Of a stretch of DNA of 64,000 bases, positions 32,328 through 33,001 are shown piece after piece. The translations under genes were made by a program, and so were the position numbers. The DNA lies in NCBI GenBank assembly GCA_021848385.1, contig JAJZUQ010000002.1:88571-152570 (forward strand), given 5' to 3'. Each line of letters starts with the position of its first letter. The first letter of the stretch is position 1. The notes beneath the pieces were generated by a model. The model saw only the letters and a program-made list of their open reading frames with translations. It was not told the origin of the DNA and did not search any database. The DNA comes from Deltaproteobacteria bacterium (GTDB lineage Bacteria > Desulfobacterota > Desulfuromonadia > Geobacterales > Geobacteraceae).

Positions 32328-32465
32328 TTGTTACCTCCTTCGTTGTTGATTAAGAATCAAAATTAAAATCCATCACATTCTGCAGTCTGCTGCTTCCAAC
32401 CTTAGGGATACCACCACCTTTCACAAGAGAGTGCCGATATGCTCGGGTACGTTTAAATCCCCCTC

Positions 32466-32519
32466 CAAAAGAAAAGCCCCGCTCCGCTCCCCGACATTAC
32501 GGGCAGACGAAACAGGGCT
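32466..32519 (-). terminator. Terminator-like hairpin in porin 5' leader
   Basis: Minus strand AGCCCTGTTTCGT...GCGGAGCGGGGCT (about 13 bp including GU) then TTTTCTTTT. Confidence 0.7.
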
Positions 32520-32604
32520 CTGAACAATGCTGTCCCGCAGGACGCAAGACATTGGTCTTCCCGTTACACTTCTGTTGGCTAGTGTTCATGCGTGTAAGGT
32601 TCAT
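32497..32604 (-). CDS. Putative 35-aa Cys-containing leader peptide overlapping the terminator
   Basis: AAGGAtaataATG; MNLTRMNTSQQKCNGKTNVLRPAGQHCSEPCFVCP*; downstream of promoter, last codons form the 5' arm of the hairpin. Confidence 0.4.
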   Translation of the reverse strand: MNLTRMNTSQQKCNGKTNVLRPAGQHCSEPCFVCP

Positions 32605-32632
32605 TATTATCCTTGCCCGATGAAGCTGCACT

Positions 32633-32661
32633 AATATAAACCCTTGATTACCGGATGTCAA
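32633..32661 (-). promoter_or_regulatory. Consensus sigma70-like promoter
   Basis: Minus strand TTGACA-N17-TATATT. Confidence 0.8.
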
Positions 32662-32931
32662 CAGTTGCAAGCGTCCAGCGACGCCTGAACCTGGCCACCA
32701 TCCCACGGTTAGTCGTGGGAAAGCCCAACCATCAGGTCTTTGACTCAACCGGTAGCCACATCAAAAAATATCAACGCAAACGATGTTTTAAAATTTATGA
32801 AACAATATAATTATATTCAAACCAAAGTCAAGGAAAAATCGTCGACATTTATCCGGCAACGTAAAGATATTTCCGATTAGACGGGTAGTTACACATCTGC
32901 CCGCACCTTGCAACACTGATTCTATCGCAGC

Positions 32932-32994
32932 TAACCCCTCTAAATCTCCCCTTATCTAAGGGGGGACTGCGGGGAGGGTTAGATTTAGAGGTTA
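32932..32994. repeat. MITE-like inverted repeat downstream of mce
   Basis: TAACCCCTCTAAATCT...AGATTTAGAGGTTA ends with internal CCCCTTATCTAAGGGG palindrome. Confidence 0.7.
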
Positions 32995-33001
32995 CATGGT
33001 G

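Follow-up and report, generated by a model that had tools for sequence, protein, structure and literature searches.

In the ampC and pyrBI attenuators of Escherichia coli, translation of the leader or the presence of a ribosome on it blocks an intrinsic terminator, and the leader peptide carries no amino-acid code. Premature termination is also controlled by leader translation in the DUF1127 attenuator of Sinorhizobium meliloti, which was proposed to monitor ribosome availability and in which translation of the upstream ORF (uORF) favours termination through C-rich codons (PMC12218461). Among the E. coli uORFs with downstream 3' ends is yliM-ompX, listed as a candidate only (PMC7815308). A leader element of a different kind is the STAB-SD of Bacillus thuringiensis cry3A, a non-initiating site in the 5'-UTR that is complementary to 16S rRNA (PMC4113751).

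The leader analysed here precedes a porin gene within a 64,000-nucleotide stretch of DNA (the window) from a Geobacteraceae assembly of 122 contigs. The porin matches the NCBIfam porin model NF033939 weakly, below its cut-off, and we take it to be OmpJ-like from the context of its homologues and from what is known of GSU3304. Porins of the OmpJ type are prominent in the outer membrane of metal-reducing Geobacterales. G. sulfurreducens requires OmpJ to transfer electrons to Fe(III) and Mn(IV) oxides (PMC1186022). The accessible portion of the literature on GSU3304 yielded no description of the transcript start or leader of ompJ. The genes of methylmalonyl-CoA epimerase and mutase adjoin the porin gene, and reading by eye showed the end of the same epimerase gene ahead of the porin in leaders from Geomonas and related genera. 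The interval from the epimerase gene to the porin leader holds an inverted-repeat element (32915-32995; CCCCTTAGATAAGGGGAGATTTAGAGGGGTT), a dispersed repeat with 17 genomic matches that are 81-100% identical.

Table 1. Features of the porin leader and porin gene, in window coordinates.
Feature	Position	Strand	Sequence	Remarks
P1 promoter-like site	32804..32831	-	TTGACT-N16-TATATT, then TTTCATAAATTTTAAAACA	Upstream of P2
P2 promoter-like site	32633..32661	-	TTGACA-N17-TATATT	11/12 matches; in 4/4 genus members
Leader ORF, 35 codons	32497..32604	-	MNLTRMNTSQQKCNGKTNVLRPAGQHCSEPCFVCP	ATG 32604, TAA 32497; SD AAGGA just upstream
Intrinsic-terminator-like hairpin	32474..32520	-		-33.0 kcal/mol; ORF stop UAA (32499-32497) in loop
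U-rich tract after hairpin	32466..32475	-	TTTTCTTTT	Invariant in genus
16S-complementary element	32410..32422	-	GAAAGGTGGTGGT	Near-perfect complement of 16S 3' tail; about 95 nt before porin
OmpJ-like outer-membrane porin, 468 aa	30921..32327	-	SD GAAGGAGG	Start 32327

A preliminary description of this DNA had reported, on the minus strand, a consensus promoter, a 35-codon ORF with an SD-like sequence, and a terminator-like hairpin with its tract, the ORF stop falling in the hairpin loop; all of these were found (Table 1), and the porin start, placed by that description ~140 bp beyond the hairpin, is 146 nt from it. The hairpin folds with a z of -6.26, a value equalled by none of 200 shuffles. 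Directly after its U tract stands GGAGGGGG (32457-32467, minus strand), an SD-like or CsrA-like motif by its sequence, which also occurs in leaders of several genera (L014, L086, L120 and L122). As in leader-ORF attenuators, a predicted intrinsic terminator lies between promoter and structural gene, and the unit of promoter, ORF and hairpin is kept in all four genomes of the genus that were compared (the three congeners match Geobacter sp. AOG1, Geobacter sp. H2geo and Geomobilimonas luticola). Invariant among the four are the -35 box of P2, the SD and start codon of the leader ORF, and the 5' part of the unit (CAGCTTCATCGGGCAAGGATAA). Folding of the window pairs the leader SD weakly with codons 26-28.

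The ~160-nt transcript of the preliminary description agrees with the ~155 nt predicted from P2, which fold with a z of -3.17 (2/200 shuffles as good), but a second promoter-like site, P1, had been missed. A scan of 5 kb returned eight promoter-like sites, against 2.8 +/- 1.8 in shuffles. Visual inspection showed sites of the P1 type (TTGACTTTTGTTTGAAT..TATA.TG with a T-rich AACA segment) ahead of syntenic porins from other genera and families, and P1 is, as far as its sequence can tell, the older upstream promoter and the one common to the order. Because P1 is shared in this way, the leader in full probably extends over about 470 nt. Within 32780-32831 on the minus strand, P1 is followed by a T/A-rich segment ending in AACA (TTTTAAAACA, TTATATAACA or TTTTTAGAACA), which is conserved in leaders of several genera and may be a regulator site or an initially transcribed element. 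The Rfam scan that the preliminary description had suggested, run on the window and the leader, matched no known leader or riboswitch at gathering scores, and the only leader hit was at chance level (E 5).

The arrangement recurs across the order. Among the leaders of 92 porin homologues that were read, 47 from three families (f1, f3 and f4) show a terminator-like hairpin between -168 and -84, counted from the porin start. They were selected by an energy cut-off (E <= -18 within this interval), so the rate of hairpins among them cannot serve as a test; of 132 shuffled leaders, 11 (8%) reach E <= -19. The stem covaries in the g13 clade: six of its pairs have changed on both sides, and none of 500 shuffles reaches its covariation score. 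Other porin leaders, such as those of f4/g18 (L100, L104, L107, L112 and L117), are without such a hairpin near the porin. Most hairpins are preceded by a short ORF, often starting with GTG or TTG behind a modest SD, in recurrent start contexts (GTGTCAATG, GGTGGCAATG, GGAG..ATTG and GGGAGCGAA..GTG). Seven f4 leaders (L013, L025, L030, L032, L065, L096 and L110) carry TGAAACGTTTCA-like palindromes (CTGTGAAACGTTTCAG) in the region of the ORF start, possibly an operator or a small hairpin at the leader start codon.

What tends to be kept in these ORFs is the position of the stop. Under an objective rule, which takes the start with the best SD 20-130 nt before the hairpin in each of 33 dissimilar leaders, 23 of the stops lie in the loop, in the 5' arm or no more than 15 nt ahead of that arm. 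For the other two frames, 12 of 66 stops fall in the same zone, a control biased by NTGA starts, which give an immediate stop in the +1 frame. Relative to a random position, 10.8 leaders would be expected (P 7e-7), and relative to a random start codon of the same leader, 16.9 (P 0.0045), with the leaders treated as independent, which related leaders are not; the excess over random start codons is modest. When starts in conserved contexts were called by eye, all 36 ORFs reached the hairpin or ended within 15 nt of it: 13 stops lie in the loop, 10 in the 5' arm, 7 up to 15 nt before it (one of these, in L080, only just long enough) and 3 in the 3' arm (L023, L064 and L086), and 3 ORFs run through the hairpin (L030, L090 and L122). 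A putatively translatable ORF usually ends at or in the predicted terminator, with a conservation of position that is statistical.

The peptide itself is a different matter. In the three congeners it is 94, 77 and 74% identical, and a 3-nt indel among their ORFs preserves the frame. Outside the hairpin, pN/pS within the genus ranges from 0.07 to 0.91 (mostly 0.3-0.6), moderately low values that point to weak constraint. The C-terminal CSEPCFVCP is encoded by the 5' arm of the hairpin, and since a nearly identical arm (TGTTCcAGAGCCCTGTTTCGTCTG) is read in another frame in L122, its conservation is at least partly driven by the RNA. A search with the leader peptide among 97 relatives gave significant E values in the three congeners only; a candidate paralogue of this peptide within the genome (43%, E 0.17) was rejected as a chance match. 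Between genera the peptides are unrelated (LLTQNSPRITQKSS, MPLSNSTQ..CCCKPLPAL, VNVSEKNIKEIQSYL and MKMPGPF..CESPFTVLC), and indels can shift the frame relative to the hairpin in related leaders, as in L017 versus L070, with the stops remaining inside. The preliminary description had held that a hairpin conserved without its ORF would favour a plain sRNA; the hairpin is indeed conserved and the peptide is not, but the presence of the ORF and the position of its stop are.

Sequences upstream of the 5' arm that could pair with it occur at chance level (mean z 0.02; 1 of 33 leaders below z -2), which makes an RNA-only antiterminator unlikely, and mutually exclusive pairing of the antiterminator or 2:3-hairpin type was rejected as a candidate on the same 33 leaders. 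With no upstream strand complementary to the 5' arm, the best reading is a translation-coupled attenuator working by ribosome occlusion, and it is with moderate confidence that we regard the leader as a transcription attenuator that would read translation itself and not an amino acid. From the arrangement we infer termination, occlusion by the ribosome, the direction of control and the signal. RNA polymerase would start at P1, P2 or both, and produce a leader carrying a ribosome-binding site and the short ORF. A ribosome following closely would reach the end of the ORF inside the 5' arm of the terminator or no more than about 15 nt from it; by covering the arm it would keep the hairpin from forming, and transcription would proceed into the porin gene. 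If leader translation failed or lagged, for example because of few free ribosomes, a blocked leader SD or slow elongation, the hairpin would form and transcription would stop, giving a product of about 155 nt if begun at P2 and of about 325 nt if begun at P1. The terminator would thus be on by default and relieved by the arrival of a ribosome, the peptide being irrelevant and the signal being leader translation in general, with no particular codon involved.

The main rival, which we judge rather unlikely, is a plain partial terminator with an incidental ORF, whose short product may or may not act as a stand-alone sRNA. The unit of about 155 nt is complete from promoter to terminator, its CAGCTTCATCGGGCAAGGATAA part is invariant in the genus as the seed of an sRNA might be, the peptide is not conserved between genera, and sRNAs derived from 5'-UTRs are known (PMC7815308). 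However, start signals and a non-random stop placement recur in leaders of unrelated sequence, and no common candidate seed was seen across genera. Alternatively, an RNA-binding protein or an sRNA could control the leader through the same ORF and terminator, CsrA acting on GGA motifs being one example. Such motifs are present at the leader SD and directly behind the U tract, and ompJ (GSU3304) mRNA is lowered 1.5-1.7-fold when csrA is mutated in G. sulfurreducens, which makes protein control of the leader conceivable (PMC11934962). GGA is a common motif, however, and the effect in the mutant is small and may be indirect, so that this explanation seems improbable to us. The weakest alternative is the attenuator of the trp/his type, with ribosomes stalling at Cys codons, as the preliminary description had suggested: four of the 35 codons are indeed Cys, two of them in the hairpin arm, but Cys13 is Tyr in two of the four genus members and Cys34 in one, many homologous sister leaders have one Cys or none (several have none), no alternative hairpin of the 2:3 type was seen, and no run of codons for one amino acid is conserved in the leaders compared in the genus and the order, so that this amino-acid-specific part of the earlier interpretation is largely refuted and very improbable. 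What comparison supports in that interpretation is the coupling to translation, with an ORF and its start signal before the hairpin order-wide and stops in or near it beyond chance.

Downstream of the predicted terminator lies an element that the first reading had overlooked, GAAAGGTGGTGGT, of which this genome contains a single exact copy. The exact motif was found in 87 of 141 genomes of the order, and many of the matches, not all, belong to the porin leaders that were read. Because no 16S gene was found in this assembly or in the three relatives searched, the anti-SD sequence was taken from general knowledge; with this assumed 16S 3' tail, 41 of 68 non-redundant leaders are predicted to have a site that pairs at or below -15 kcal/mol, whereas among 1360 shuffled segments 19 do. 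The site precedes the porin by about 75-107 nt (median -90). Its usual form is GAAAGGTGGTGRT, with a conserved U mismatch, and it often matches better than the SD of the porin itself; in the leaders compared, no start codon was seen to be conserved behind it. It is conserved across families and present in porin paralogues without the attenuator (for example L071 and L075). By sequence, GAAAGGTGGTGGT resembles a STAB-SD or a standby site, and it would probably bind 30S subunits and shield the porin mRNA from RNase J, which is encoded in this genome.

It is possible, if doubtful, that the two elements act in series throughout the order as ribosome-sensing modules of one outer-membrane gene, as an attenuator of a major porin gauging translation capacity through an ORF free to drift, followed by a 30S docking site that would stabilize the mRNA. 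The arrangement suggests that the porin channel is made only when ribosomes are busy translating. If so, a translation-gated attenuator would link the composition of the envelope directly to translational capacity, and the leader would be a clean case of selection retaining the position of an ORF and not its peptide, a principle useful for finding attenuators that methods based on peptide conservation miss. With the conserved 16S-complementary element, a role like that of STAB-SD can be tested directly outside Firmicutes.

Compared with the systems described above, the leader resembles ampC and pyrBI in the proposed block of a terminator by leader translation without an amino-acid code, and differs from them in the class of gene, a porin, and in ORFs of 5-51 codons with variable sequence. 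As in the S. meliloti DUF1127 uORF (PMC12218461), translation of a leader ORF is proposed to control premature termination, but the polarity is opposite, translation here being predicted to prevent an intrinsic hairpin. Like yliM-ompX, it places a short ORF before the gene of an outer-membrane protein, with a premature 3' end that is here predicted. Finally, the leader shares with cry3A a predicted 16S-complementary site in the 5'-UTR and a host that encodes RNase J, whereas the Geobacterales site is distinguished by the form GAAAGGTGGTGRT, a conserved U mismatch and a location about 90 nt before a porin.
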